The notes under the pieces are model-generated. The model had not been told where the DNA came from, did not search any database, and saw nothing but the letters and a program-made list of their open reading frames with translations. This document shows, one piece after another, positions 3,925-57,432 of a DNA stretch of 64,000 nucleotides. Both the position numbers and the translations under genes were made by a program. The DNA is from Liolophura sinensis (taxonomy: Eukaryota > Mollusca > Polyplacophora > Chitonida > Chitonidae), in NCBI RefSeq assembly GCF_032854445.1, contig NC_088307.1, forward strand, positions 26,674,046 to 26,738,045. The letters are read 5' to 3'. Numbering within the stretch: the stretch's first letter is position 1; the number at the start of each line of letters is the position of its first letter.

Positions 3925-6900
3925 CTACTTTTTTAGTAGCGTTCCAGAATTCTTCGCACTGTTTAATGTGCCTAGAAACCTTTTATCCGGAACAATCTGA
4001 GCAGTTATAAAAATTACAAGGAATATCAAAGCCATCGCCGCGAAAATCTGAAACATTCTCGGTGTTCCAAAAGCCTGAGTTAAGGCTCCGCTGACAGGGA
4101 AACTTATACCCATCCCAAGGGCGATAAGAGCCTGCATAACCCCTTGGACCTGTGTCTGGAAATGTTCTGGTACCTGATTGCTGAGGTGAGATACGATGGC
4201 ACTCCACTGACAAGCAAACGTCACGCCTGAAACACACAACACAACAGGTAATCAACATGACCGAAATTGGCAAGCCAGGATTTCATTTCATCAACATAAC
4301 AGCTCATTAGAACATCAATGTACAAGTAACAGGTAAATAGAATATCATCGTAGAAGTAACAGGTGAATAGAATATCATCTTTAAAGGTCAACGGAACATC
4401 AACGTAACAGGTCAATGGAACATCAGCCTAACAGGCCGGTAGAACATCAACGTAACAAGCGAATAGAGCGTCATCGCAACAGCTCGGTACGCACGACCGG
4501 GGATGAAGCCAACACGAGCTGGACTTGAGCTCCCAGTGCCCACATTTGTGAGTGGTTCCTTGGTGACTGTGCTGTCCGAGTACGCTAACCGAAAGGCCAT
4601 GGAGAGACCCTCCTATTTAATGCTTGTTCATAGCGTTATCTGTCATAAACGAGAAGGGACAGGTAAAATCCTGCACTTATATGAAGCCGATATCAAATAT
4701 TCCACGAAGATCAATGCATTTCAACTCCATCCACAAGGACTAACTGCCCTTTAGCCTCTCTAGTGCATTGTATTTTTTATACTCAGTGAATGTGCGTTCT
4801 ACTCACTACCGGTTGTTCGAGCATACGAGTTAAATTCTACTTGTATCTAACTACTTGTCTAGGTTTCCAATAAAATCTTAGTAATTACAAATTTGTTGAC
4901 AACCGCTTAGTTATTAAGGATTTTAGAATCGTACACTTGTCGAGTTGGCAGGCAATTTAGTAAATGTTTTTTAAACTGAACCCAGTTGTCTTAGATAAAG
5001 GACATACTCCATTTTATTGTGAGAGCACAACTGCCGGAGATAACATAAATACAGAAGCCAATAGAGGACCTTTTCCTACTACATTACCTCGACCATTTTC
5101 GTACGGAGTGTTGCCTCGATCTTCGTAATGCAGGACGAGGTAGCGAGGCCGGGGATGAAAACACCCCTTTCTTCAAGCAATAGATCGAGATCTCCAACGT
5201 TACAAAATTACTCAATGAGAAAACCACTGTTCAGCGTAAGTTATGAACACGACTATGTTTGAAGATTCCGTACCTTCGACAATTTGGATCAATAGAACGT
5301 ACATGGGATTGACCAGAGCTGCATAAGCCAGAAATCGAACTGCATATGTCGCCATTCCTGCACTGACCAACTTCCAGTGTCCTAACACCCTTATGAGCAT
5401 TGGAGTGATGAAAAACATGAAAAACTCTACTGTTGTAGTTATCAGAACGGAAGCGCCAATTATATAAGGCGATGCGCCTGAAACAAAAAAATATAGCACA
5501 GCTATATAAAATTGTGCAGATCATGGCCAAATAAACGCAAATAAGCAATAGCTGCAGTACATCCATTAAAGTCAAAGTTGTATTGCACACGGACAAAGTG
5601 AATAACACATTTTAAATGGGAGAATATCAAAAAACTGACTGCACGTCAAAGGTAAAAACCTAAATAAACTTCTTAATTACAAGGCACAATGACTGTAGGT
5701 CAACCTTCACAGCTCGGTGTACACGGATATTTTCGTCTGCGACTATATGTAAACTAGAGCATAAGTCAGTGTAGAAGCAACTGCTCGAAGGTTATTGAGA
5801 TGATATACGTACCATAATCACACATACTTCCCGGATCAAAACTGGAAGTTCATACCGCACCGTTCATTTAGGCCCGACTACTAAACACCTGCGCCCTGCT
5901 TGAAGCTTTTACATTGTGGGAGATCTCGCGCTAAACATATTTTGGACATATTGATGCTGAACAGGTCAACGGCCACCATGTTGTCACTGGCATAAATCAG
6001 CATAAGTCTGTTCGCGGTTCAGGATGCATCAATTGCAAAAGTTACGCGTCTACTATCACACGTAATTTGTCGACTCGTGAATAGTGACAATGACAACCTC
6101 GTGGCCGGTGATCTGTTCAGGTGGGCGAATGGGAGGTATATCATTCCTAATGAGTTACAGTGGACAAAAATGATTGAGGGTTTCCGCGTTTCAACGGTTA
6201 CGTGTGATCATTTGCCGGCAATCACACTAATGTCCTTGCTGTGGATTTACTTGCTAAGCTCAACGTCTTAATCATATTATGTTTCACAGTGTTTCTCCTT
6301 CACGCACAGTGCAGTTGTAGCTACGCCGACACTAAATTGAAAGTTTTAGGAACGAACGGCTATAGTCATTCGTTCTGTCTGTGTCTTTCAGTTGGTCAGT
6401 CCTTCGGTCGGCCGGACGGTCAAATCCTGTGCAATCTTCTAATCTGGGCGTTCTGTCTTGTAGCAAGGGCCATTCATCTCAGGAGGGACAATAGTGCAAG
6501 GCGACACAAAATCGTATAAACAGGGGATGTCGCGACTAACGCGAATTTGTCGCAACTCAGTAAATGTGCCATCATACTTTCTGTCGGCTACAAGCAATCA
6601 CCGTCGGAGCAAAATATAAATCTAGTCGCCGTTAATCTAACGCAGGTTAGAAACAGTTTCAGTGAAGCAAGTTTCAGTGAAGATGCGTGAGTTACATTAA
6701 ACTATATATTTATTTATTTTTTCAAGCGTTATACTCAAGAATTTTCGGTGAGTTTTATGTGTAGAACATTGTTCGGGTAAAACCATCCGCTTTTTGCTGG
6801 TTACTGTCGGACTTTCCCACGTGTGTTGCACAGATTAGCACACCATATCGGTGGAAGGCTAGTGGTCTGCAACGAACCTTAAACGGTGCAAAGGGCTACA

Positions 6901-9900
6901 CGAGCATCGTGGACAGTTTTCTCTGACCAAGGCCCCCGGCACATTTGACAGACCGGAAATTTGCATGATTTAATATTCATAGACCGGAAACGATATGTCA
7001 CGTCTCTTACCTATATTCTCCAAATGCCAGCTGAGAAACCCCTGAGTTATTGTCAAGAATACACTGTGAGAGAAAAGAATAAACAACCAAGACAGATTCT
7101 TAAATGTCATCAATAATGCCATGTAGTTTGTTCCGTTGGATATTTCCTCCACAGCCACTGAAATTATACCTCTCCGACCCTGAAAGAAATGCAAAAGCAC
7201 GAATCGTCTATGTTTATAAAGCAAACACAGAAGGCAGCATTTTTCTAAACATTTACAACATTGTGTACTTTCCTCACTGTAAAGAGTAACAACAGTTCTT
7301 TAGACTTACATTTTTTGTAAAAGATATTTAGCATTAAATGTAGATATACTTGATGTATTATAACGTACACACCGAGTTAACAATCAAATTGCTTGAGGAA
7401 AACCACCGTCCTGCGGCAGGTACCTGACAAACCACTGCATATCATTTGCATACAAATTACTTAATTCACTCATCAGTGCACTCTCTTAGATGCACAACAA
7501 TATCCCTGACAAGTGCCAAGGAGACTAATTGTATGGTTGTGGAGATAATCAAAGGATAGGTAAAAGTGTATACATGAATGTAGAGAATATTTTCTCAAGA
7601 ATTCTCCACTTATACAATGGCAATCAATATTATGGGGAATCGGAACCAGCTGGGAGAAATCACCGAAGTGTTGAAAGTTATTGACGAAAAATCCCACAGG
7701 TGACATGTGCACATATGCACACAAGTGCAGTTGGTGGAAGACGGGGGGTGGTCTTCAACGAACGGTTAGATTGTGCAAACGGAATCACGATCGTCGTTTA
7801 CCACTGTAAGAGCAATCACTTTCCGTAGCTAGCATATGAAATGAGACCAGGGGCTTCAAGAAATCTCTACCAGCTTTAGACAATGAATTAGGGATTGAAT
7901 TCCATGTGAAATACAAATGCAGAGAAATTCTAGGAAGTCAGGCAAATCCAAGAGGTATCGAGGTATCCGTCGTTTTCGTATTAGCATTTCCTATATGGGT
8001 GGATTTTCACAAAACAAAATATCTAGTGGACTCTCATTAGAACCACTGTTCGTGAACTGACTAATAAGGTTTTTTGCTGGCTTCCTCTCTGGTCGTATGT
8101 GGGAAGGTCTGTGGATGCAGGTGGGTTTCTCCCTGGCTCTGTCCCATTTCCTCCCAGCGTCGTATAAGTCAAATATTCTTGAGTACGGCGTTCAACACCA
8201 ATCAGATAAATAAATAATAATAAGAATTTATTGTTGAATCAATCGGGCTTCATGTCTCAGGGATGGATGTCAGGGATAGAAAGGCGAAAGTGAACTAATC
8301 ATGTAGTTGATTAATACATGCACTCTCGCCCGGACATTTCCGTGTTCGGGCTGGGTATGGCCTCAGACCCATATTAATTTTTCACACCTATTCCACAAAC
8401 ATTCCATGGCCAAGAATCATGAATGCCTAACTTCCGCAACCTACAAAAAAAGCATCCATGCAAATCTTAGCATAGTCATCTATAGTGTGTCCGATTCCGG
8501 CGTTTCTCAATGTGTTAGCATTTATAGCCCGGTATTATGTTAATGTCGATGTAATTAACCTCATAGCTGTAACTAAAATAAGCTTTTTACAGTCACTATG
8601 TTCAAAGCTAAAATGCAGATCGAGTATGATGTCCAAAATCATGCTTTGAGAAACGGAAATATCTTAGTTTAAATTAAAACAGGACATTAATATAGTTTGA
8701 AATAGTTTAGTCATCATGAACTAAAGAACAAGATTATTGTTTGAAGTATGCAGAATTCCTTTTCCACGAAAGCAATAACTCTTAACCAAAGATGAATTAG
8801 TGTTCTTATTGAACGGAGTGTGTGTGTGGGGGGGGGGGGGAGGGGCTGTGGGGGGGGGGGGGAATTGTTGTGCTTGCTTTGATTTGAAGTAATACAAGAT
8901 GTGAACAATATACCTTAAATACCTTAAATATTCTTGGGATATTGGCAAGCGTGACAGCACCGAAAAAGGCAGTGAGATAGAACATGTAGTGGTAGTCAGT
9001 GCCCTGGACCATTTTTCCGCAGATCAACTGGGAAACCGTGCTGGTCGATACGAGGCTACCAATGGCAATGGCACTGCAAAGATATCATGGATGCATTGGT
9101 TCGCGACAGACTGAGCAAAGCCCACATCATATTGGTGACAACCGCCAGTAACATTTCAGGTGTGGAGATATTCCCATATTCTACTGACATAAAGTATTTT
9201 ATTATTCTAAAGTGGAATTTTTGTGGTTTACTTTTTTTCTGTTGCTTTCTTCGGGGATGTCTTGTGTGTTTAGAGCTCTCATCCTCTTTGTTTAAAGCTC
9301 TAATCCTCTTTGTTTAAAGCTCTCATCCTCTTTGTTTAAAGCTCCCACTCTCAATTTTTCACCTATACCATTGAAGTCATAACCAAGGGTGAAGGAAACC
9401 GGAGTACCTGAGAAAAACTAGCGGAGTACCTGAGAAAAACTACCCTTAGTGACGAACTTTCCCACATAGGACCTACAAATATGTGTGAAAGGCGAACAAC
9501 GTCGAAAATACATCTTCCAAATGAAATAAGTTTTAGGACACCAAGTCACATTGGTATCCGTGGAACACAGTCGTGGAGAGGGAAGCTAAATCTGTTCTTA
9601 ATAAGCCCGTATCGACACTAACATTTCATTCTATAATTTACAGCCGCATATTCTTGGTTATATTCGTCGCCTTTGAAATGTACTTTTTTACTCGCTCTGT
9701 CAAATTTCAATTTACGTGGGTTGTATGCTCGTGATTTTTCTCCCAGTCATAGGGATACAAAAGCCTTGATTGACTTTATTCCTACCACTTGTAATACCTA
9801 TCAACATGCTATGATAAATAATTTACCCGTCTTTCTTGGCAAACAACAACACCTTGTACTTAGACTCACCCAATACCATGACCAAGTGATCCCCAAGCGC

Positions 9901-10438
9901 GGATGTTGCCAATCTTTCCTGAATTTGCGTCTCCAAGGGACTGAAGTGTGACGGCAGTGTGAATGCTGTCGCAAGTGACCGTAGCAAATTGCATGCAAAA
10001 TGCGACGAATGAGAATCCTACCATGTCCACAAAATGCCCAATATCACTTCCTTTGTGTACTAGTTCGAAAACACGATTTGTAGCGGTTGAGTTGGTGGAG
10101 TTTTTCGTGAGGTTTTGTAACGTAACCTCTACGCAAACATCGGAGATATCTGGTAACGGTATAAAAACCATACAAAAAGACGATACCAGAAGAAACACCA
10201 GGCAAGAGCACATGACATTCATTTCACCTTCCAGTCTTCTGATGATAAAGTCACTTAAGAGTCCAGCGACGACACCTCAGGCGGGTAGAAAGGAGAGGAC
10301 AATCCCTATCTCAGCTGGTTGTAATTGGTATTCTTTGAGATACAATGGATAAAAAACGGGAAGGAAACCTATGCAAGCGTATAAAATAAAAAATCCAAGC
10401 CTCAAGGACATCAGCGAATGTTTGGCTGAGTTATCCAT
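3925..10438 (-). CDS. MFSD6-like major facilitator superfamily transporter, five exons, one in-frame TGA
   Basis: Predicted multi-pass membrane transporter of the MFS_1-like/MFSD6 group; its substrate cannot be told from sequence. Exons on the minus strand are 10438-9870, 9073-8914, 7179-7011, 5477-5274 and 4226-3925 (stop TAG at 3927-3925). All phases join (2, 0, 1, 1), giving 468 codons. Donors are GTGAGT, GTATAT, GTAAGA and GTACGG; acceptors end in CAG. The first helix reads GFFILYACIGFLPVFYPLYL, followed by a YQLQPAEIGIVLSFLPA segment like the MFSD6 N-terminal region. Later joins give HLENIG/ASPYIIGASVL and LLIQIVEG/VTFACQWSAI, a typical family stretch. The oddity is a TGA at 10279-10277 directly before GVVAGLLSD, where relatives carry Trp-Gly, so a TGG-to-TGA change is likely. 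The ATG at 10438 is the first in frame; the frame stays open to 10528, so an upstream coding exon joined near 10501 is possible. Family call sure; intactness unsure. Confidence 0.82.
4289..4485. repeat. Degenerate ~24-bp minisatellite in the last intron of the transporter gene
   Basis: Loose repeats of a unit like gtaacaggtcaatggaacat run through the intron between exons 4 and 5. The copies differ in length and sequence. Confidence 0.6.
4490..4610 (-). repeat. SINE family 1 remnant
   Basis: Only the head half remains, in reverse: gacgaccggggatgaagcc-like sequence, then cacgagctggacttgagctc and gtacgctaaccgaaaggcc. It sits in the last intron of the transporter gene. Confidence 0.6.
6700..6822 (-). 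repeat. SINE family 1 remnant
   Basis: Reverse-oriented tail and middle: tatttatttatttt, then ttatactcaagaattttc, then ggtaaaaccatccgc and ggactttcccacg. Strongly diverged. Lies in the intron between exons 3 and 4 of the transporter gene. Confidence 0.5.
8070..8218 (+). repeat. SINE family 1, 5'-truncated copy
   Basis: Begins within the body (gctggcttcctctctggtcg) and runs to the tail gagtacggcgttcaacacca and ataaataataa. Lies in the intron between exons 2 and 3 of the transporter gene. Confidence 0.8.
8818..8863. repeat. Poly-G tract with GT lead-in
   Basis: A gtgtgtgt run is followed by two long G runs separated by agggg and ctgtg. It lies about 50 bp downstream (on the minus strand) of the donor site of transporter exon 2. 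The pattern of four or more G runs could fold as a G-quadruplex; that is inference. Confidence 0.8.
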
Positions 10439-16107: not shown

Positions 16108-16479
16108 CCGCCGGTACACTGCGTCCGGGCTACGACAGCCACAGTTCTTGCTGATGCCGGGGTTTCTGTGATGGGCGTTATGTTTGTGACAGGCCATCGC
16201 AATGAATCCAGTGTACGGAGTTATGTCACCAAACTGTCGGTTTCAAAATGCCGTGAAATCAGCAATATCCTGCATGCTTCAAGTGTGTTATCAGAAAATG
16301 CTGAAAGTGAAAATGCCGTTGAGAACACTCCCATGTCGGTCACACCACTCCCAGTGCAAATGCCCGATGCTGTCGACTGTAAGTTACACGTAACAGTAGC
16401 AATACCATCCAAATGGCAAAATCTCAGTTTTCAGTCACGCTTCAAAGTTTTGGAGGGTTGTTTAAAGATGCAACAATAA
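16108..16479 (+). pseudogene. Tyrosine-recombinase C-terminal fragment (Crypton/KIAA1958-like)
   Basis: The plus frame from about 16117 reads HCVRATTATVLADAG, then VTGHRNESSVRSYVTKLS, and ends at a stop at 16479. This matches the end of a tyrosine recombinase: His-x-x-Arg (HCVR), Gly-His-Arg (TGHRN) and the nucleophile Tyr (VRSY). A stop codon lies in the same frame at 16105-16107, so the rest of the catalytic domain is lost or out of frame. About 120 residues remain. It resembles the recombinase part of Crypton-type transposons and host genes derived from them. It is not the same family copy as the element at 34202. Confidence 0.65.
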
Positions 16480-20169: not shown

Positions 20170-21480
20170 ATAGTGAGAAACCAGCTATGTAAGTATATGG
20201 AAAATACACATGAAGATTACATTTTGAAGTTTAAATTCTCCGTCGAGTCGGTGTTGGAATGCGCTGAGTTAAACGAATGCATCGGGGTTTTTGTTAAGGA
20301 ATATATCAGAAGATTTCAGAGACTGTCTTATCAATGCATAAGGGAAACTATATTACCGTTGAGAAGGACTTCTTTAATGCGGTGGCATATACATGTAACA
20401 AGGTGGACTGAGATACATGTGACAAGGTAGACTGAGATACATGTAACAAGGTGGACTGAGATATATGGAACAAGGTAATCTAAGGTACATGTAACAAGGT
20501 GGACTGAGATACATGTGACAAGGTAATCTAAGGTACATGTAACAAGGTGATCTAAAGTACATGTAACAAGGTGGACAGAGATACATGTGACAAGGTAGAC
20601 TGAGATACATGTAACAAGGTGGTCTAAGATATATGTAACAAGGTAATCTAAGGTACATGTAACAAGGTGGACTGAGATACATGTGACAAGGTAACCTAAA
20701 GTACATGTAACAAGGTGGTCTAAGATACATGTAAAAAGGTGATCTAAGGTACATGTAACAAGGTGAACTGAGATATATGTAACAAGGTGATCTAAGGTAC
20801 ATGTAACAAGGTGGACTGAGATACATGTGACAAGGTAATCTAAAGTACATGTAACAAGGCGGTCTAATATATATGTAACAAGGTAATCTAAGGTACATGT
20901 AACAAGGTGAACTGAGATATATGTAACAAGGTAATCTAAGATACATGTAACAAGGTGGTCTAAGATACATGTAACAAGGTAATCTAAGATACTTGTAGAA
21001 TGGTGGTCGAAGATATATATACATAGGCGTTTGGAGATACATGTAACAAGGTGGGCTGAGATACATGTGACAAGGTAGAGTAAGATACATGTAACAAGGT
21101 GGTCTAACATACCTGTAATAAAGCGGTGGGAAATACATGTAACAAGGTGGTCGGAAATACATGTAACAAGGTAAACTAAGATACATGCAACAAGGTGGTC
21201 GGAGATAAATGTATCAAGGCGATGGGAGACAGATGTAACAAGGTTATCTCAGTGTAAATTTAGATTGATGCAACGCTGCGAATGGTACGTAACAAAATCG
21301 TCACGATTGGCAGATGTCAAAGTTTATCCCATGCGATATCACATGTTTGAATCGTGCTCCGGTAAACATAACATCCACTTTTTATTACGAAGCCATAGTT
21401 CCAGGAATTCTATTTTTTCGAATGTTAATCTTGTAACTTGTGCAATAAGTTCACGTGTTTTCATATAATATACGTGTGCA
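20170..21480. repeat. Local duplicated unit, copy A (contains the expanded minisatellite)
   Basis: The part 20213-20365 (ttttgaagtttaaattctcc, ggaatgcgctgagttaaacg) matches 23352-23510. The part 21240-21430 (gtgtaaatttagattgatg, gatgtcaaagtttatccc) matches 23562-23700 and 22545-22680. The three places are diverged copies of one sequence block. Only this copy holds the long array. Confidence 0.8.
20388..21250 (+). repeat. 24-bp minisatellite, about 36 copies
   Basis: The unit is of the type acatgtaacaaggtggactg plus agat. The second half of each unit varies between ggactgag, aatctaag, gatctaag and ggtctaag, so several unit variants alternate. A 24-bp period is eight codons, which is why long frames (about 260 codons of Tyr/Cys/Pro- or Leu/Val/Thr-rich repeats) stay open on the minus strand. 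Those frames lack any domain and are a by-product. Confidence 0.95.
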
Positions 21481-24425: not shown

Positions 24426-27400
24426 ATGGCTTACGCACATAACAGGGATGTGTTGTCGACGTTTCAGCTTGGAGACATAGTAACCTTTGATCGACTTTTA
24501 CACATCCATTGCTGCATTTATGCAGGTAAGTTTATGGTCTCTACTCAGAGTGTTCTGTTCATACAACTTAACCTTAGCTACAACTATACACCTCTATAAA
24601 TCGGTCGTTCCTTCTGTCGATGAACAACTCTTTGACATCGACTTTAACACGCTAACATTGCTAACATCGACAGAAGTTCAAAACTCCATCTGGATACTGA
24701 TTTAATGCATTCAACTAGAACATTCACTGTGCTTAATAAATGGTATAACCATAATCAAAGCTGTCAGTAAACAGCATTTCCCGGATTCAAGCTGTTCGAC
24801 TTGCTTTTATATAGGGTTATTTGCATAGCAGATACGAATTTTACCACAGCTGGGGCCGGGCAAAATAAAGGATATATTGTAATCGGATACTTGGATTGTA
24901 CGTTTGATCTACTGCTGACAGTCATTGTCAGAAAGAACCTATTTGAAGAACCTATTGGCGCAGGCAGTAATATGTACGAAATGAGAAAAACGCGATAAAG
25001 AAGAAAAGGATTGTGCTGGATTTGAACCCGTGGCATTCGTATATCACGTACAACAGGTCTACTACTCAAAAGCAGTACAGCGATATTGCAGCTTTGGTTT
25101 CTTCTACACAGCGAAAGACAGAAGACAGATACAATACATTGTTAAAAGGTTGAGTCCCTTCACTCGGTAAAGTATAAATTTTTGAAACTGTCGTGGAGAA
25201 AAATCCTGCGCTATTTCAGTATCAATGTATTCGTCCAGAAGGAGAATCTTTTTTAAAAGTTTACATTGAAATTCCTTTTGATCACCAAGCCATGGGACCG
25301 AATCACAAAACATAATAAGTCATATTTCTCGTACCTTTTTTCGTAAAAGACGTTGCCTACTTTATTGTTCCATATAGCGACGTTGTTTACGAGAAAGGTT
25401 ACGAAAAGTTGAGTTACAAAGCTTGTTGAAAGTGTGACCAAACGTGTCTGAAGGCTACGAGGCACAACTTTAAGTTCTACGTAAAGCATAGGAAAGTTTT
25501 ATGAATTTCTGACTGACTTTTCACTGTCACTGTTTTGTCGAGAATACTAATAATCCAAATGGTCATCAAGATGATTTTTTCAGAATTTAATTTCACATAT
25601 TTATGTTAGTGCCCTCTGGAAACACAGAAATTATGCTAAACTATAACAGACGAACAGCTTAGAGAGTAAAAGACTGTGATAGTTGGCAAATAGTCACATG
25701 TAACCGTGAAATACGTCCTCTTGTCAATTTACCTAAGTCAGGGTTTTATTATAAGTGTTCATGTAAATGCATAAATAGTAGCAAATTAAACGCCACTTTT
25801 GTCATGTTATTTAATGAAAAAAATCTTTACTTTTCTTGACGACAGGGGATGGAAAGGTTATCCACAAATTGAGCAATGCGACCAAATTATTACCGTCAAT
25901 TTCAACAGTACTACAAACGGTGCTATCTTCATGGAAGATTTCTTTCAGGTGGCTGGAAATAGCAAAGTGAGAATTGGCAACAAGGACGATCTGCTTGAGT
26001 AAGTATGATGAGTGTTCCAGCTGTCTCCCGTCAAGTTCTTGACTTTTTTCTTTAGCAATTTTCCCCAGGTCATTGTGCCAGGGAGACAAAAGGTATAAAT
26101 AATGCACTTATAAATCAAGGTAAACTAACGTAAACCTCATTGTATTAAAATTGATTAAAACTACACAGCCAGCAAATCATATTAAATGGTAAAAAAAACC
26201 CTTGTTGATGCTGTTGTTTCTAAATCACATATTTGATGCTTAAGGGACTTTATTATGAACATATCAGTGAATGATTTCCACTAACCACAGCCTTTATTAT
26301 TTTAGGCCTGTTGGCAACGGAGAGGAAATAGTGTCGAGGGCAAGACGAGTACTAAATGGCGAACCTGGTATTCATGGTTATTACAACCTGTATAGAAATA
26401 ACTGCGAGCACTTTGCTTTCTGGTGCCGCTACAATGTGTCTTTCGGCACGCAGGTGAGTTATATCTCTTCGAAAGTCCATATACACACACCTGTGGCAAC
26501 ATCAGCACAACTCTTTTCAATTCTTTTGGTATTATTTAAACATTTTCACGTGGAGACAGAATAAAACACCAGTTGAGCTTTGCTGAGAAGAGACCGGCTT
26601 TCACGGGTTCCATGTGACTGTTTGCCAAATGTCACACTCTTTGCTGCACTGGTTTTACTTCCCGTGCTGCGGTTTTTACATTCGTATAGGGGATAGATAG
26701 GGATCGATGCGGTGAAGTGGATTGTAAGGCTATAAATGTTAAACTGAAGCATGACTGTTGAGCTGACAACGACTACCCTTGCTTCAATGCCTACATTCTG
26801 GGGAGGAGACTGGAGTAAGTTGAATAAATCCCGTAAGGGTAGCAATAAAAGTGTAAGAGTGACATTTGTATTGCCCCTGGAAATTACTTAAGGGATTCGT
26901 ATTTGAAACACAGATTGGCTGAAAGAAGCAAGGGAACAGTGAGAATTGGATATCCGAAGTCTGCTACATCGCCGGTGAGAGGCGATCTGTTTTGATTAAC
27001 CATGTAAGAGACATAATTATCAGATAGTATATTCTCGTAGTAGCTACGACAGTATGACACTTGGCAAATGGTCACACTAGCCGGTGAAACGGGACTTCAG
27101 TTTACTGTCTGTTATTAGCAAATTTCTTTGGGCCTTCGTGGCCGAGGTGGTTAGCACGCCAGCACGGCGTAATGTCCCAGGGCCCTCAATGCGGTCGTTG
27201 CGAACTCAAGGTGGGAAGATCAGCTTGCAGCCTGCGGATGGTTGCGGGCTTGCCCCGGGTTCTACCCGGTTTAATTACACCACAATACTGATCGCCGTCG
27301 TATAAGTAATATATTCTTAAAATAATTAAGGCGTACAGCACAGACAGTAAAACCAGAGCAGCAACGACAGTGTGACAGTTGGCAGACGGCCAGACGTAAC

Positions 27401-28436
27401 CGGCGAAATACGGCCCCATGTCAGTCCAACTTTATTCTAACTGTTCACTTAAATGCAGACACAGTGGCAATTTACACGCCCCCTGGCACCATGGTCTAAG
27501 CAGAACTAGGTACAAAATTCGGTGATGTTTACAGCGATTAAGTATGGCTTGAAATACAAAAAATCTACCACCTGTTCATGTAAGTGCTTATCTAGAACCC
27601 ACAGAAACGGTCCTGTGTTTTCAGTGTGAAGTGTTTACCGTTTTTTTTCCCGGGTTGGTTGACAATTTAGTGAAAAATCACTTTTGCAGATATTGAAAAA
27701 CCTTTCTGCAACGCAGAGGTTAGAGATTCCTCAAAGGCAAATGGTTTGGATGATAAAGATATCTAAAGCCGAGACAGAAAACCTCAGGGAAGAAGATGAG
27801 CTGTTAAAAAGGGAATATGAATCATTGAAGAAGGAGAAAAAAATGACCAGTAATTTGTTTAATAACGAATGTCTGGGAGGAGAGAAAGATAGGTTGACTG
27901 CTAAGAACGAAGAGCTGAAAGTAGAGATGAGTGAGTTCGAGAACGTGAACGAAGAGTTGAGAGCAAAGCAAGAAATGTTCGAAGGACATGCAAAAACATT
28001 ATCGAGAAGTATAGATACAGCAGGCGGTGACAACGATATGAAATTACTGAGGCTCCAAATGAGAGATGAGGCAAAAAATAACATCGAAAATGCAATCAGT
28101 TTGATAACAGAAAGACGAACATTGAGCAATGAGAAGCAAGAGGTAAAAGCAAAGAGAAAACAGTTGATAGATTTAAAACTAGAGTTGGTCAAGAAGAGAC
28201 AAATCATGATTGAACAGGAGAAAAGAATGCTAGAAGAGGAGCATATGGTGAATCGTAAAATAGAAGATCTGGAAAGGGAAAAAGAAATGTCAAATAACTC
28301 ACTCCCTGATGTTGAGGGAATTAGGATAATGCGAGAATTGCTTGAGAGTGTTGGTCGTTTGTATAATGAAAAGAAGGAGTTGAGAGCAAGGGAACAAAGG
28401 TGGCGCATAGAGATAGAAAATGTAGGCTCTCACTAG
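24426..28436 (+). CDS. LRAT-domain (NlpC/P60-like) thiol acyltransferase with a long C-terminal coiled coil, four exons, one-base phase break in exon 2
   Basis: Exons are 24426-24525 (an acceptor at 24412-24414 means an earlier exon is likely), 25846-25998, 26306-26453 and 27690-28436. LRAT proteins move acyl groups through a Cys thioester. Exon 1 gives FQLGDIVTF and IHCCIYAG; exon 2 begins GDGKVIH; exon 3 gives YRNNCEHFAFWCRYNV. So the family's His (residue 28), second His (residue 40) and Cys of NCEHF are all present. Exon 2 then carries FMEDFFQVAGNSKVRIGN, also typical, but in the next frame: 153 bases cannot join phase 1 to the required phase 2. Exon 3 joins phase 0 to exon 4, about 248 residues rich in Lys, Glu, Arg and Leu, a clear coiled coil ending at TAG 28434-28436. 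A coil of this length on an LRAT domain is unusual. The break may be an assembly error, a polymorphism or decay. Domain call firm; expression unknown. Confidence 0.8.
25672..25795 (+). repeat. Dispersed repeat in LRAT intron 1
   Basis: Shares the order tgatagttggcaaatagtca, catgtaaccgtgaaatacg, ttcatgtaaatgcataaat with 12455-12560 and, in part, with 27045-27100 and 27365-27475. It has no coding content. Confidence 0.55.
27129..27345 (+). repeat. SINE family 1 copy in LRAT intron 3
   Basis: Head ggccttcgtggccgaggtgg ttagcacgcc, body with gcctgcggatggttgcggg and a tail with cgccgtcgtataagtaatat. Diverged. Confidence 0.75.
27365..27475 (+). repeat. Dispersed repeat, further copy in LRAT intron 3
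   Basis: gtgacagttggcagacggcc, cgtaaccggcgaaatacggc and gttcacttaaatgcagaca follow the same order as 25672-25795. Confidence 0.5.
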
Positions 28437-28929
28437 ATTGATAGAGTATATTTGGATGGGGTTCTCTAGTTTAAACCACCCATATACACAGCTCATTTTC
28501 TATACACCTTCTTTACTGAGTAATAATAGGTGTTTTGAATTTCCGTGATACATTCCAGTCTGTTAATGATGGCAAATAGTTTCATTCTCTGACTTCCGTA
28601 AACACATTAGCACTGTGTTTTTGACATTACATGCCGAGGAATGTAACCCTTGAATTTGTGGTATAACGGCTGCCATGTGGAAGGGATTATATTAATAGGA
28701 GAATGAACGATCAACACATACAAACCAGGAATCGATGACGTAACGGACATTGTCATCTCGCTTAATGAATCTTTTTTTTTCCTTTATTATGAACTTGTCC
28801 GTGCAAATCCTGGTATTTCATCGATATGAACAGGTGTTGTAACTGATAAGCTGCCTAGATATTGGTACAGCTCAAGATTCGGTTGAATTATGGAATATTC
28901 TTAGCAGGGCGCTGATTCCGATATACAGT
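28437..28929. other. No recognisable feature (3' flank of the LRAT gene)
   Basis: Likely includes the 3' untranslated part of the gene. I see no convincing AATAAA signal close to the stop codon. Confidence 0.35.
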
Positions 28930-31790
28930 CAGCTGACAGATACTCTCGCTAGCCGAGTGACCATTTCTGTCAATGTATCAGCTGTGATAAAAACTAGTTA
29001 TAGGGCCCAGAGTAACGGTAATTTGACACTTGTGAAGTCCGGAATCCATGCTTCACACAAGAACAGACTAGGCCTCTGTCCAACGGATGTGAAATGTCTT
29101 ACAATTGAAATAGCTCAGGCAGGTACACAAACAATCCTCATAACAACCGTATACAGACCACTTGACTCACCAGTCGCCTGGAAAAGACACTTCAAATGTT
29201 TACCGGTGATCTTAATTTAGATTTAATGAAATAAGCAAACCAAAATGACAGATTAGGGTTACTGAAACTACGAAAACCTTCACAGACCATATATACATTA
29301 CGGACCCAGAGGTGTTTTGTGATAGTGGCGTATTTCCTGCTCAGTGTTGTAGAAGGAGTGGCGGATCCGTCATCATGAAAGAAGACGAACTTCTTTCGGA
29401 AATTCACACACGTGATCACATGCACAATAAGGCCATGGATTCTAAGCATGAAATGGAAGGAAAAATCTGTCGTGCTCAACGAAATCGCGTTCTGGGAATA
29501 CTTCGAAAAACGAAGTCCGAATTTTGGTCCGATCACATAGAGGAATCAAAGGACAATTCAAAGGAATTGTGAAAAACTCTTAAAGAACTTTCAGCCTCAT
29601 AAAACTAAAATATCCTTTGATTTCTTTAATGTAGATGGCGTTACCATATGTAAAAAACCTGACATCGTGAACTATTTATTCAATATTTTAGCAAAATAGA
29701 CAGTGGCATCGGCAAAGGTTTTAATAATCCTTTGCCACAAATGAAAGACAGATTACCGATAAATACTAATGTAGAAATTTCTTCTATTTCGGAAGACTTC
29801 GTTAAAAGTCAGATAAAAGGTATGTCTGGAGGTAAAGCCCAAGGCCTAGATGGAATTTCCGCAAGAATGTTAAAAATTTCTGTTGAACATATTGGTAGAC
29901 CTCTGTCTTTTATCTTCTATCTGTCTATATATACGGGCATATTTGTTGATGACTTGAAGATAGCCAGAGTAACTCCTATCTGTATCACCTGTCTGCCCGT
30001 CATCATAGAAAAGTGATGACCGCTTCTCTCTTGTGTGTTACCGGCTTTATTTCCTATTTGTATAATTTCTTACAAACCTTTGTCTTTGGGAGCTAGTGTT
30101 AAGCGTTGTTTTGGAAATGGATCTTGGGATTATCGACTTGGAACGCCCTTTACGGACTACGAATGGTATACGAATGACGGACATGACGCTTATCCTATTT
30201 ACAAATCCGTTCAGGCCTCTGACTTATGTAACTGCAGGCCAATTTCTGCCCTACATATTGTAAGTAAGATAATAGAAAGACATGTAAATAATTGCTTTTA
30301 TACTTTTTTAGAACAAAACAACTGTTTTATTAGGAACCTATCGGGATTTAGACCCAATCATTGATGTGAAACTGCTCTTAACAATATGGCTGACAGGTGG
30401 TTTAAAAATATCGATGATGGGCTTTTAACTGATGTGGTGTTTTTAGATCTCCGAAAAGCGTTTGGCATCGTCAACCATGCTGTTTTATTACACAAGCTTA
30501 GTGTCTGTTGTGTAAATGGAAATATCTTTAACTGGTATAAATCCTACCTGACAGGTAGGAGACAACATGTAACCTAGAAAGGAACAACATCATTATCAAG
30601 GTGCGTGGTCATTAGAGTTCCCCAGGGGTCCATTTTGGGGCCATTGTTTTTTATCTTATACATTAGCGACCTAACTGACTGTCTGGAATACTCACACAGA
30701 TTTGTATGCTGACGATAGTTCACAGTCTTGTACAGGTAAAAATGTAAACGAAATTCAGACCATGTTATGTGCCAATCTAGAGAATATATCAAACTGGGTG
30801 TTCATAAATAAGTTAAGTCTTTAAACTTGACAAGACAAAATGTATGCTAATTGGATTAACACAGCTGTTAACTCGTGTGCGTCCTTTGTCTCTAATCATA
30901 AATAATGTGGCTATAGAAAATGTTTTGGAATAAAAACTGTTAGGCATCTTTGCTTGACAGCAGACTGACCTGGCACAATCATGTTTTACAATTATGTAAA
31001 AAGATATCAAAAAAACTTGGAGTTTTAAAAACGTGTTAGTCATTTTATGCCCAGAGAAACTGAAATTTTATTGTACAATGCACTTCTCTTTCCACGCCTT
31101 GAGATTTGTTCGACTGTCTGGGGCAATGTCTCAAATCATAGTTTTATCAATAAAATGCACAAATTACAAAAGAGAGCAGCTAGGATTATTCTGTAACCTC
31201 ACCAGATCTTAACTGCAAGAGCAAATCTTTTTAAACAGGTGAACTGGATGCCCATTGGTGACAGGATAAATTTTATGCGTGCAATTCTGACCTATAAACT
31301 GTTTAAGCCTCTCAGTACTTACACTGCTTCAACGTTTCTAAAACTGTACATAACTATAATGCCCGATCCCCTCAAAGCACAATAGGACACAGTATTTTAA
31401 ACGAAGTTTTATTTACTCTGCTACAATTTTATGGAACAGACTGAGTGAGTCTGTGAGATATTGTCCAAATGTTGTGTCCTTTAAACGAGCACATCTAAAG
31501 CAATAATTTAACAAATGAAGTTCTGGTGAAACTATACATCTGTTTTAGATACAGCATATATGTTCTATTTCTACTCGACCCCAAACGATTTACAAATTTG
31601 CTGATGATTTAAAATCTTCACACATATTTCTATCTTATATTATTGTATATATACTGCTCTTTTACTCATACTAATAATGTATATATGTTCGAACAACTAG
31701 TTCTACAACTAATTATGTAACCCTTGGTAAATAAAGGATCTATCTATCTATATATCTATCCATATATCTGTATATCTATCAGTCAGTGCC
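28930..31790 (+). pseudogene. Non-LTR retrotransposon wreck (CR1/Jockey type)
   Basis: Broken pieces in the right order for a LINE ORF2: an endonuclease-like part at 28957-29220 (HASHKNRLGLC, TVYRPLDSP), then reverse transcriptase pieces. These read GKAQGLDGISARMLK at about 29830, CRPISALHIVSKIIERH at 30236, [18 protein letters not shown] near 30430, GVPQGSILGP-like sequence around 30610-30640, and LYADDSSQS with the YADD active site at 30705-30716. Frames change and stops occur (for example at 30361-30363), so it cannot make a full enzyme. The 3' end carries gtaaataaaggatctatcta and a (tatc)n run, as in CR1-like elements. It is interrupted by a short repeat at about 29985-30192. Confidence 0.85.
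29985..30192 (+). repeat. Short repeat nested in the LINE
   Basis: The reverse transcriptase frame breaks after KIARVTPI and resumes at YKSVQASDLCNCRPIS. The stretch between holds the family 4 signature (gtgttaagcgttgttttgga, ttatcgacttggaacgccc, tggtatacgaatga). The edges tcctatct and tcctattt look like a target duplication. Confidence 0.55.
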
Positions 31791-34020: not shown

Positions 34021-34201
34021 CGTTTTTGGATACTTTGTGGGCGCCAGCTGAATAGGTGGAGCAGGAACAGGTGGATGGATGATTCCACCTCCAAGAAAAC
34101 CTTTCCATCGCTGAGAAAATCTTTAACCCACAGCGGGGACTACATGAGGAGTAGAATTTTCTACCTATGTACAATGCAGCAAAAATCGTTATGTCATTTG
34201 T

Positions 34202-34951
34202 GTGAAGAAATTTTGGACTTTAGGCTGCCGCGAGTGTCATAGCCTATATACAATGACCACAAGTGTGAGATCTACGAGGATCAACAAGCGAAATCGCGTC
34301 ACTTCAGGAAAAAGTTACTCGACAGATCACACAAGGCGTGTATTGGACTCGTTTCTTCATGTAACTGTGACGTCACATGTACGGACTACTTTTTGTTTGT
34401 CAACAAGCAGACGACACAACACGATGTTCGTCCGTGCTCGTCCAGAAAAATCTGTGTCTCCGGACAGTCCGTTCTACCTCACACCAATTCCCAAATGTCG
34501 CCTCAAACCTGATGCAGCTATGTGGTATTACTCCACTCCAATGGGGGAGCATCGTTTGGGAGAGCTATTGAAAGGGAAAGCCGAGGCTGCTGGACTGAAA
34601 GGCCGGAAAACTAATCACTCGGTCCGAAAAACAACCGTCCAAACCCTTGTAAAATCTGGCGTCGCTCCACATAAAATTATGCAGGTCACCGGACACAAAT
34701 CCCTTGCTAGCATCCAGGAGTATGATTCTAAACTAGATGACGTAGAGCAGAAGCAAATGTCCAGTTTACTTCAGGGCAATCGCGCCTTCAGTCAACCATC
34801 TCCCGCGCTTCCACTCCCTAGCCGGTCAGTTCAAGTGCACACAAACGAAGTTTTCACGACTCCGATGCCATCAACTTCCGCACAGAATGCCAAGGATAAT
34901 CAGCTAACTTTGTCAGCAAACTCGTCTGTTCGGTGGCGCAGTTTTCAATGA
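34202..34951 (+). CDS. Tyrosine recombinase of a mobile element (Crypton-like), C-terminal catalytic part
   Basis: A 249-codon open frame. The recognisable part starts near codon 97 (SPDSPFYLTPIP) and runs through MWYYSTPMGEHRLGELL, NHSVRKTTVQTLV, MQVTGHKSLASIQEYDS and a polar, Ser/Pro-rich C-terminus ending FQ at 34951. Catalytic residues seen: His and Arg of NHSVR (around 34616-34627), His of TGHKS (about 34694) and Tyr of QEYDS (34721-34723). The upstream catalytic Arg and the N-terminal DNA-binding region are not visible, so this is a truncated enzyme or one with another exon. The C-terminal coding part and the 900 bases of context downstream recur at 42283-42815 in reverse, which marks it as part of a transposon family rather than a host gene. 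The first ATG in frame is at about 34253. Confidence 0.7.
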   Translation: MKKFWTLGCRECHSLYTMTTSVRSTRINKRNRVTSGKSYSTDHTRRVLDSFLHVTVTSHVRTTFCLSTSRRHNTMFVRARPEKSVSPDSPFYLTPIPKCRLKPDAAMWYYSTPMGEHRLGELLKGKAEAAGLKGRKTNHSVRKTTVQTLVKSGVAPHKIMQVTGHKSLASIQEYDSKLDDVEQKQMSSLLQGNRAFSQPSPALPLPSRSVQVHTNEVFTTPMPSTSAQNAKDNQLTLSANSSVRWRSFQ

Positions 34952-49189: not shown

Positions 49190-50530
49190 TGATTAAATCG
49201 ATGTCATTCAAAACTGAAGGCAAGACAGTCCGAAAACTATTTTTGTTTTTCCCGCTTAGATTATTGCTGCGAAGCATATGATTCGGCGTGTGTTTCTTTG
49301 AAGTCTAAGTTAGATTCTGTTTAATGCACTGCCATACGGGTAATGTCCTCTAGATGTTGTGTAAAGAATGGCCGTTGTATATTAGACGACAATTCCGTAC
49401 TCTAAAGTATGTTGTTAAGCTTAAGTCCAGTAGAAGTAATTCGGCATGTGCCGTGTTGGAATCTTCTGTCTACGATGTCCTCTATTAGGATAATACGAAA
49501 GCTCCTCGTCCGTTTAAGCTTCGTGCTGAAGATATCTATCAAAACTCTGGCGCTGATAAGCTTGTTACACAACGTTGTATTACCCCACCATTTCCACCAT
49601 GGCATATTTTCATACCACAAAGTCCATGTAATTTGTTGTCTCAAATTAAAAAGTCTGATCCCCTGATGTCACTAGATTGTGCTTTGCAGAGTTTTACAGA
49701 TGCCTCCAAATGCAAGCAGACGGGTAAAGTAGCGGCAGCGATATGCACTCCAGAGTTTGGTTGCAGTAAAACATCGAGACAGTCTGACCACGTGCTTTTA
49801 TGCTCTGCAGAACATATAGCTATTCTTTTAGCGTTTCAATTTGTAAATGATTTTAAACTGCTCAAGTCTGTTATATTTAGTGATTCTCTCTCCTCTATAC
49901 AATCCCTAGTCAGTTTCAATGCTGGCAGATCCTTGCCAGTTGTCTATGAAATATTATATATGTATACTGCTCTACTCCGTGAAGGGGTTTATGTTTTTTT
50001 TTGGATTGGGTTCCCAATCATGTTGGCATTTATGGCAATGAACAAGGCTGGGCTAATGCTTGAGAATATCATTAATGTTACTCCCCTTTCTCTTTCAGAA
50101 ACGATGTGCCTGTACAGATTTAATCTTCATCCCATTGGTCTATGTGATTATTGTTTAGTGGATGATGATGTTAAGCATTTGATATTTAACTGCAGACTGC
50201 ACACGCGTGCTAGGGCACTATTATTTGCTGACCTCATTAAAGCTGGTGTCCTTAATCCCTCCATGGAGACAATCTTTAGGCCATAGAATGCTAAGGTCCC
50301 TCAGGCTATTACCTTCTTCCTGATGCGCTGTAATGAGTGTTGCAATTTTTACGGATTACAACCAAGTTAAAACTTAAAGGTGTTGCATGGAAGCACGCAG
50401 ACAACCAGGCAAATTTAACATAGTTTTTCGAGAAACTCGTCACCCATAATGTTTCGCCCACCAAAGTGTGGGCCGTACTTGTAGAAGTCGATAATTATCG
50501 AGTATGACGTAAAGCACTAGTCAGGTTAAC
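49190..50530 (+). pseudogene. Non-LTR retrotransposon 3' half with RNase H (I/Nimb-like)
   Basis: The frame 49633-50286 carries an RNase H core: FTDASKCKQTG (first Asp), LLCSAEHIAILLAF (Glu) and VIFSDSLSSIQSL (second Asp). A zinc-knuckle-like CDYCLVDDDVKHLIFNC ends it. An upstream part in other frames (49390-49630) still reads like the stretch before RNase H. The last Asp region is altered (NKAGLMLE where a G..N..AD motif is expected). The 3' part 50285-50530 is non-coding and ends with cgagtatgacgtaaagcact, which resembles the tail of SINE family 1. Confidence 0.75.
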
Positions 50531-55313: not shown

Positions 55314-57432
55314 TGAGTGAGTGAGTGAGTGAAAGTTTATACGTCGCTTTCAATAATATTTCAGTTTTATCGCTACAATAAAACGTCAAGTAGTCGATCT
55401 ACTACGGATAATTCATTTACTATTCAGTCAAAAAAAGACACCAGAAGTCACATAACAAACACAGAAGGTAGTCTAAAATCACAGTTTTCCTGCCATACCA
55501 ATGGTAGAGAGAAAATCAAAAATAGTATCACTTTCTACAGAAATAAAAAGTTCTGAAAGAGAGCTCACGTGATAAAGGAATCTCGTACAGGAGCAAAGTC
55601 GCCACAGTCAAGCAATATGTTCTTGACTGTGAACCGTTGATCACAAGCAAAGCAATGAGGAGCATCTTCTCCTTTCAACAAATTCCTGTGCGTAGCACGT
55701 GTGTGACCGATACGACACCTCCTCAAAATGCAATAGCGGAGACGATGCCGTGAAAGGGAAGGCGCTGGACCAACAAACTGACAAATATCATGCAGTTTGT
55801 TGGTTGTCTGGTCACCCCATTGAGGCCTGAAACAAGCGCTTGATATAGGAGCAAATAAGTGAACGCAAGTCCGAATATGGAACGTCAGTTTGAGTAGTAA
55901 CGGAATGCAAAGCTGCCTTCGCGGCTTCATCTGCAGCAGTATCCCCAGGGATACCCATATGCCCGGGCGCCCAACAAAAGACAATGATAAAATCTTCATT
56001 AAGTCGTTTAAACATCTCCCTGTTAGACAAAATGTCTGGATGTACAGGCAAACTAGCCCGAATTGCCTGGAGGCAGGAAAGGGAGTCAGAGCAGATGAGA
56101 AATCTGGTACCTCCTAGCTCTGGAATGGACCGAAGTGCGCACAAAATTGGCTTGGCTTCCGTAGTAAATATAGAACAGGAATTTTGAAACCGAGTTGAAA
56201 TGGTTCTGGGCCCAAGGACAGCGGCAGAAGCCACGCCATCATCATTCTTGGAACCATCAGTGAATATGCGGTGATAAAATGGATACTTTGAACACATATT
56301 ACTAAACTCCTGTTGGTACACTAAAGGGTTGGTGGAAGATTTCTTCAGGGAGGAGAGCGAGGTATCAACCTGAGGCTCAGGACATAACCACGGTGGATCT
56401 TCTTGGATGCGTATGGGGGTGATTGTATCCAGCCCAAGTCCAGCTGCTTGCACATGTTCCTGGATGCGGACACCCGGTGGAGGAACAATGGATGGCTTCT
56501 GAGCATATAGGTCTTCAAATTCCGGATGGAAGACACAATCAATGGCTGGGTTGGATGGATTGGCTCTAAGCTTGGTGATATACTGTAAGGCTAGTTTAGT
56601 TCTTCGAAGCTCCAGGGGAGGCTCGTTTGCCTCAACATACAAACTCTCCACAGGAGAGGTACGGAAAGCACCTAAGCACAACCGTAGGGCCTGGTGATGT
56701 ACAGTATGGAGCTTCTTCAACTGGGAGCGTGACGCACCTCCATAAACACTGCAGGCATAATCTAGCTTAGAACGAATCAGTGCTCGATAGAGCTGAAGTA
56801 GGGTTTCATGACCCCCTCCCCATCGAGCACTAGAGACAACCTTCAAAATATCAAGCGCCTTTAGGCATCTGGCTCTAAGATAATTAATGTGAGATTTAAA
56901 TGTAAGGTGCTTATAGAAGATCACCCCGAGGAATTTTGCCTCCGGCACAAACTTGATGGGGGACCCATCTTAAAATACCTTGGGGTCTTCATGGGGGAAG
57001 TACTTCCGACAAAAGTGTACACAGTTAGTCTTCGACTTGGAGAACTTAAATCCGTTCTCCAGTGCCCAGGCATGGATTTTTTAAAGGCAAATCTGCAGCT
57101 GTCTCTCAATAGTGTGCATACCTTTGCCTCGACAAGAGATACCAAGATCGTCCACAAAAAGTGACGCATTCATACAAGGAGATAAAACTCTGGCAAGGCG
57201 ACTTCTAAGTCCCAAATCCATGCATATCTTTTATAATGCCATATTTCCAAGTAGTGTCATATGCCTTTTCCAGATCAAAAAAGACAGATACGACATGGTC
57301 ACGATTAACGATACCGTTCTTAATAAAGCATTCTAGACGAACAAGGTGATCAACAGTACTGCGATTCTTTCGAAATCCACATTGAATGTCGCTTTCGAAA
57401 GAATCGCAGTACTGTTGATCACCTTGTTCGTC
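55314..57432 (-). mobile_element. RNase H-bearing LINE (I/Nimb-like), 5' truncated, with target duplication
   Basis: A complete insertion unit on the minus strand: a 5' end made of a 44-bp fold-back (57332-57436), then the reverse transcriptase C-terminal half, RNase H, a zinc-knuckle tail, a 3' untranslated part, and an end reading gacgtataaactttcactca, then (ctca)n at 55314-55333. The 13-bp direct repeats on both sides prove target-primed insertion. In reading order the transcriptase part shows GFRKNRSTVDHLVRLECF, FFDLEKAYDTTW and FVDDLGISC (the xVDD active site near 57150). Confidence 0.92.
55565..57330 (-). pseudogene. LINE ORF2 remnant: reverse transcriptase end, RNase H, zinc-knuckle tail
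   Basis: The main open part (56948-55812) starts PEAKFLGVIFYKHLTFKSHI and continues through YRALIRSKLDYACSVYGGAS. RNase H follows with its four acidic residues: FTDGSKNDDG, TTEAKPILCALRSI, FLICSDSLSCLQAI and GDTAADEAAKAAL. After a frame change near 55820 it reads CRIGHTRATHRNLLKGEDAP, then CFACDQRFTVKNILLDC, a CCHC-like knuckle. Upstream (57330-56950) the transcriptase motifs are in more than one frame. So it is a recent but inactive copy. Compared with the fragment at 49190, RNase H is better kept. Confidence 0.85.

Follow-up and report, generated by a model that had tools for sequence, protein, structure and literature searches.

What kind of protein is encoded where an acyltransferase domain of the LRAT family runs into a long coiled coil? 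This question is raised by gene A, a four-exon gene on the plus strand of contig C13 of the chiton Liolophura sinensis (assembly GCF_032854445.1; 609 Mb, 632 contigs), which lies in the window analyzed here, a stretch of 64,000 nucleotides (C13:26674046-26738045). A first-pass annotation had described gene A as an LRAT thiol acyltransferase joined to a coil. As a gene type this combination held up, with three copies in the same order, but the annotated copy is without a complete enzyme frame because of a break in exon 2. With moderate confidence, we favor a reading in which gene A belongs to a cluster of three PLAAT-type genes whose membrane-anchor exon would have been swapped for an exon encoding a coil of ~250 residues, and which is now, most likely, either in decay or polymorphic for null alleles.

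The four exons of gene A lie at the positions first proposed, and introns 1-3 all have GT/AG ends, with phases 1, 2, and 0. Exon 1 (24426..24525) carries the start of the LRAT/PLAAT domain, MAYAHNRDVLSTFQLGDIVTFDRLLHIHCCIYA, and ends in a strong phase-1 donor, CAGGTAAGT; it matches exon 1 of the neighboring gene B and of two paralogs elsewhere in the genome, L010 and L011. Its translation contains the HIHCCIY motif, with the His codon at 24507-24509. Exon 2 (25846..25998) contains the GDGKVIH motif, with VIH at 25857-25865, and exon 3 (26306..26453) contains the NNCEHF motif with the catalytic Cys codon at 26403-26405 and ends in a phase-0 donor. Exon 4 (27690..28436) encodes a 248-residue coiled coil followed by a stop and occupies the position of the membrane-anchor exon of the relatives.

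Exon 3 alone scores 36.5 bits against the Pfam LRAT family (PF04970; cut-off 24.3), and neither exon 1 alone nor either frame of exon 2 alone gave a Pfam match at expectation values (E) up to 1. The spliced protein, with XX placed across the frame break, reaches 72.7 bits against the same cut-off. In the PDB (phmmer), the best match is HRASLS2 (4dpz, E 6.6e-12), followed by PLAAT3, and the NCEHF motif of gene A aligns with that of HRASLS2. Because the closest solved structures are HRASLS2 and PLAAT3, the predicted enzyme type of gene A is PLAAT/HRASLS, not LRAT proper. The original label "LRAT" is therefore right for the Pfam family, which gene A shares with lecithin:retinol acyltransferase, and wrong for the type. 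According to PMC5133064, LRAT proper has a 30-residue insertion between strands 3 and 4, and the phmmer alignment of gene A to HRASLS2 gives no sign of such an insertion. The same source states that LRAT proper is absent from invertebrates and that invertebrate LRAT-like genes retrieve HRASLS enzymes, not LRAT, which agrees with the type of gene A. Like human PLAAT2 and PLAAT3 as described in PMC4624172, gene A combines the His, VIH/VVH, and NCEHF motifs in an LRAT domain. Unlike them, it lacks the C-terminal hydrophobic anchor usual in PLAAT/HRASLS, carries the 248-residue coil instead, and has a broken frame in exon 2.

This frame break is evident from the length of the exon, which is 153 nt (0 mod 3), whereas the passage from phase 1 to phase 2 needs 1 mod 3. 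VIH sits in the frame of 25848, in which a TGA lies at 25968-25970; the canonical read ends there, and the frame continuing exon 1 thus stops after 74 residues, past VIH. The remainder of the exon (MEDFFQVAGNSKVRIGN) is read in the 25847 frame, corresponds to the latter half of the domain, and runs in phase into exon 3; three-frame translation accordingly places the VIH part and the DFFQVAGNSKVRIGN part in different frames. Owing to this split, the VIH histidine and the Cys do not share a single open frame under canonical splicing. The His/His/Cys set that the first-pass annotation had placed in exons 1-3 is thus present motif by motif in those exons, but not as one open frame in gene A as assembled. 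As read here, gene A would yield only a 74-residue fragment. Exon 2 of L010 and L011 is 181 nt long (1 mod 3) and open, and exon 2 of gene B is 125 nt long (2 mod 3, where 1 is needed), a shift unlike that of gene A. A programmed ribosomal frame shift in exon 2 was rejected, since different shifts would be needed in A and B.

In gene A, exon 4 has an uninterrupted frame up to its stop, and 41.1% of its residues are charged. Its hydrophobic residues recur with a period of 3.45 residues, as do those of the coil of gene B, and in each case this was reached by 0 of 1000 shuffles. AlphaFold2, run on the single sequence of exon 4, predicts long helices at residues 15-110, 116-201, and 208-247 with a mean predicted local distance difference test score (pLDDT) of 82.5. 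The helices are broken near 111-115 and 202-207, and the second break coincides with an EKxMSNNS motif common to the coils of A and B. The charged, heptad-like coil proposed for exon 4 was confirmed, as both the periodicity test and the AlphaFold2 helices gave the positive coil prediction that had been suggested as a check. Pfam coil-type models matched exon 4 below their cut-offs only (best 16.7 bits), a PDB profile search with the coil alignment gave no match at E up to 0.01, and a phage tblastn search with the coil as query gave none. A 232-residue open frame runs antisense to the coil exon (27734-28429, minus strand) and is probably a by-product of Lys/Glu-rich codons.

With 248 residues in A and 249 in B, the encoded coils align at 27-29% identity over almost their full length. 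Their local alignment score is 173, compared with maxima of 120 in 1000 plain shuffles and 122 in 1000 heptad-block shuffles. Natural control coils from the same genome, taken as 15 windows of concatenated myosin-tail-type pieces, reached at most 99 against A and 82 against B. Eight loci were given to this control (L042, L043, and L046-L051) and six were kept; L043 and L050 had no frame passing the length and charge filter, and L044 and L045 were excluded as repeat-like. It replaced an earlier control (L033-L035 and L042-L045), in which the filter retained four frames, drawn from three loci, and L042 alone resembled a true coil. This comparison identifies the two coils as homologs, and the block shuffles and natural coils rule out shared composition alone as the source of their similarity. 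Both frames are open, although the two coils differ at about half of their aligned nucleotides. A neutral simulation with point substitutions only, run 2000 times at 0.2 substitutions per site, left the coil free of stops in 0.25% of cases. Neutral drift would hardly leave both coils open, and a chance open frame was ruled out by the simulation, the heptad test, and the homology to B.

Gene B lies on the minus strand (C13:26757315 to 26746973), and the third gene, C, lies on the plus strand with its exon 3 at C13:26771772. In all three cluster copies a coil exon follows LRAT exon 3 on the same strand, at a distance of ~1.2 kb (A), ~1.4 kb (B), and ~1.7 kb (C). The phase-0 junction of exons 3 and 4, already noted for A in the first-pass annotation, is the same in B. 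This shared junction, together with the same order and strand in three neighboring copies, supports the view that LRAT and coil exons together make up a single type of gene. Gene C is a clear pseudogene: it has no recognizable match to exon 1 or 2, and its coil contains stops. Lesions were thus found in 3 of 3 coil copies and in neither of the two four-exon anchor copies, L010 and L011. Gene C also carries two copies of exon 3 ~250 bp apart, one of them degenerate (C13:26771516-26771909).

The genome-wide extent of the family was assessed by several searches, whose match counts are lower bounds. Searching the assembly exon by exon with the Pfam LRAT model gave at least six matches from eight candidates, namely, one on C3 (whole domain), one at C13:1.72 Mb, one at C6:4.26 Mb, and the cluster of three. 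A second search, with exon 3 of gene C as the query, gave at least six matches from seven candidates: A, B, C, the damaged second exon 3 of C, and the two distant genes. The coil of A found only itself (one match, 10 candidates), missing B and C, and the coil of B, with 25 candidates, recovered its own locus and three weak C6 matches (17.4-19.2 bits), missing A. Exon 3 of gene A is 76% identical to that of C, 57% to that of B, and 57% and 59% to those of L010 and L011, respectively; between A and B, its nonsynonymous (dN) and synonymous (dS) rates are 0.29 and 1.23 (NG86).

L010 (C13:1717182-1721688) and L011 (C6:4262728-4267002), both on the minus strand, provide the comparison for the last exon. 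They are open across four exons, score 99.2 and 94.3 bits against Pfam LRAT, and share with gene A the intron phases 1/2/0, the exon borders, and the catalytic motifs. Unlike gene A, they have intact frames and a last exon (VDRFLWAIAGAVGFGVVTLVGAFFGL... in L010, VDKAVTFAAVTCVVGAFVGLAMG... in L011) encoding a transmembrane anchor and a basic tail, entered at the same phase-0 junction. The Kyte-Doolittle hydropathy maxima over 19 residues (KD19) of the last exon are 2.11 and 2.19 in L010 and L011, compared with 0.19 in A and 0.92 in B. A scan covering intron 3 and ~2 kb of 3' flanking sequence in A (to 30500) and B detected no anchor-like exon, and it recovered the known anchor exon in both control genes, L010 and L011; a hidden anchor exon as an alternative end of A or B was therefore rejected. 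In L010 and L011, the stretch that follows exon 3 contains tandem SWSEQVRRHH-like repeats similar to the end of the exon, and these are numerous in L010.

Since the anchor paralogs of the same genome enter their last exon at the same junction, the coil probably took the place of the anchor as the last exon, before the cluster duplicated. We infer the direction, anchor first, from PMC4624172, in which a C-terminal anchor is usual in the human PLAAT family members. PLAAT5/HRASLS5, which that source describes as having no C-terminal anchor, is like gene A in this respect. The replacement of the normal last exon, a membrane anchor, by an exon for a coil of ~250 residues would predate the split of A and B, and both coils may have remained open through most of the interval that followed, as their homology and open frames suggest. 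Judged by its family, the intact protein is predicted to be a Cys-His(-His) thiol acyltransferase/phospholipase. Its coil may hold it in a predicted homodimer or on a partner or protein scaffold, and its tail would no longer insert it in the membrane. To our knowledge, PLAAT5/HRASLS5 has no long C-terminal coil. The gene type may have been kept by selection for long and then broken recently, or only in the sequenced haplotype. Given the separate exon 2 frame shifts in A and B and the pseudogene C, the cluster is most likely decaying or carries null alleles. Collectively, the difference of anchor and coil appears real, and at this locus it is probably in decay or polymorphic.

Several observations weigh against the reading of a decaying anchor-for-coil cluster. 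First, the search with the coil of A overlooked B and C, so further coil copies, lesioned or intact, could be overlooked as well. Second, at exon 3 gene A is as close to L010 as to B, and with this equal identity it is the coil and the location that argue for a common origin of A and B within the family. Third, the dN/dS of the coil is only weakly below 1 (0.74/2.03 by NG86 and 0.90/1.17 by YN00), and these estimates are saturated. Additionally, a short hydrophobic stretch, FPFLISLIRLIP (KD12 1.83), opens the coil exon of B and makes residual membrane contact possible there. No AATAAA or ATTAAA hexamer occurs in 28437-30000 behind A, and B has one shortly past its stop. Separate shifts in both A and B are a coincidence, and the exon 2 model might err alike in both.

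Among the alternatives, the cluster may represent a living mollusc PLAAT subfamily that would have traded its anchor for a long coil by a swap of the last exon and would encode a scaffold-bound acyltransferase, the shifts being allelic or bypassed by splicing to a dyad-only enzyme. We regard this as possible, and hold it only tentatively.

That gene A is a working LRAT-coil enzyme, with the exon 2 shift due to misassembly or to a rare allele of a gene functional in most individuals, is in our judgment unlikely. The strong splice sites, the open coil, the presence of all catalytic motifs in the DNA, and the 72.7 bits to Pfam LRAT obtained with X across the break argue for it, and molluscs are highly heterozygous. 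However, it needs two independent errors, one each in A and B, and no second haplotype copy appeared among the 40 of 7355 candidates scored in the whole-genome DNA search. The quality of the assembly also speaks against an error. Five HSP70 copies cover the model from 1 to 597 in a single frame without stops. HSP70 gave at least 49 matches in total, the remainder being exon-sized or partial; the internal stop contained in 12 of the 49 counts in favor of a working gene A, although we assume such stops to be exon edges running into introns. Similarly, one stretch of C8 contains eight consecutive beta-sandwich domains of hemocyanin, all eight above the Pfam cut-off and all in open frames of 429-529 residues with no stops; a run of such domains is typical of mollusc hemocyanin, in keeping with the mollusc origin that the first-pass annotation had assumed. 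With the HSP70 and hemocyanin frames open, frequent indel errors and an assembly error are unlikely. One partial HSP70 match adjoins a listed frame of 42,745 residues, presumably masked sequence.

Unusual splicing that keeps the frame appears improbable to a greater degree. With an acceptor before 25857 in A and a donor 4 nt upstream in B, it would leave each gene with an open LRAT-coil reading frame that lacks the VIH histidine and encodes a Cys-His dyad enzyme. The products are open throughout (378 residues in A and 371 in B) and retain 55.1 and 56.9 bits to Pfam LRAT, respectively. However, the adjacent sites score much higher than the alternative ones (5.9 versus -13.4 in A and 11.0 versus 3.1 in B, as approximate consensus scores), the 55.1 bits of the A product compare with 72.7 for the read containing VIH, and we judge nearby in-frame alternatives to be common by chance. 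Finally, it is scarcely credible that the coil exon is part of a different transcript and sits downstream of the LRAT exons by accident, given its same place and strand in 3 of 3 cluster copies, the phase-0 acceptor common to A and B, and the homology of their coils along their length.

The family itself is known; new here are three neighboring genes with a coil exon behind LRAT exon 3. No LRAT/PLAAT-coil fusion was reported in the titles and abstract openings listed by literature searches on LRAT and PLAAT/HRASLS, a scope outside which subscription papers and protein databases lie. An anchor exon naturally replaced by a coil at the same junction would be a ready-made test of the role of the anchor, and the lineage would exemplify the relocation of an enzyme through replacement of its last exon. 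If the cluster is decaying, as we favor, it shows the outcome of such an evolutionary experiment.

Two introns of gene A contain dispersed repeats on the plus strand, detected by the whole-genome DNA search (40 of 7355 candidates scored). One lies in intron 1 (25640..25797), with 72-93% identity over parts, and the other (27318..27539) precedes the coil exon within intron 3, with longer matches of 74-81%. Rfam at the gathering threshold gave no matches, and ARAGORN gave no tRNAs. Directly 3' of the coil exon (28843-31385, plus strand) are broken pieces resembling a reverse transcriptase, which we take, by resemblance, to be that of a long interspersed nuclear element (LINE); two of the pieces have no Pfam match. 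Long open frames at 55815-56969 (minus strand) and 49489-50283 (plus strand) gave no Pfam match at E 0.01 and presumably correspond to a LINE reverse-transcriptase end and RNase H. Two tyrosine-recombinase-like frames lie on the plus strand, at 34148-34948 (Phage_integrase 28.2 bits, above the cut-off; also DUF3504 26 bits, below it) and at 16108-16476 (20.4 bits, below the cut-off), and we assume that they may be Crypton or DIRS elements. Exons of an MFS transporter, which we take to be probably MFSD6-like, occupy 3928-10276 on the minus strand (MFS_1_like and MFS_1; two of three pieces above the cut-off). A 24-bp minisatellite of 35.7 copies spans 20389-21244 and is overlain on the minus strand by two open frames, one of 305 codons and one of 279.

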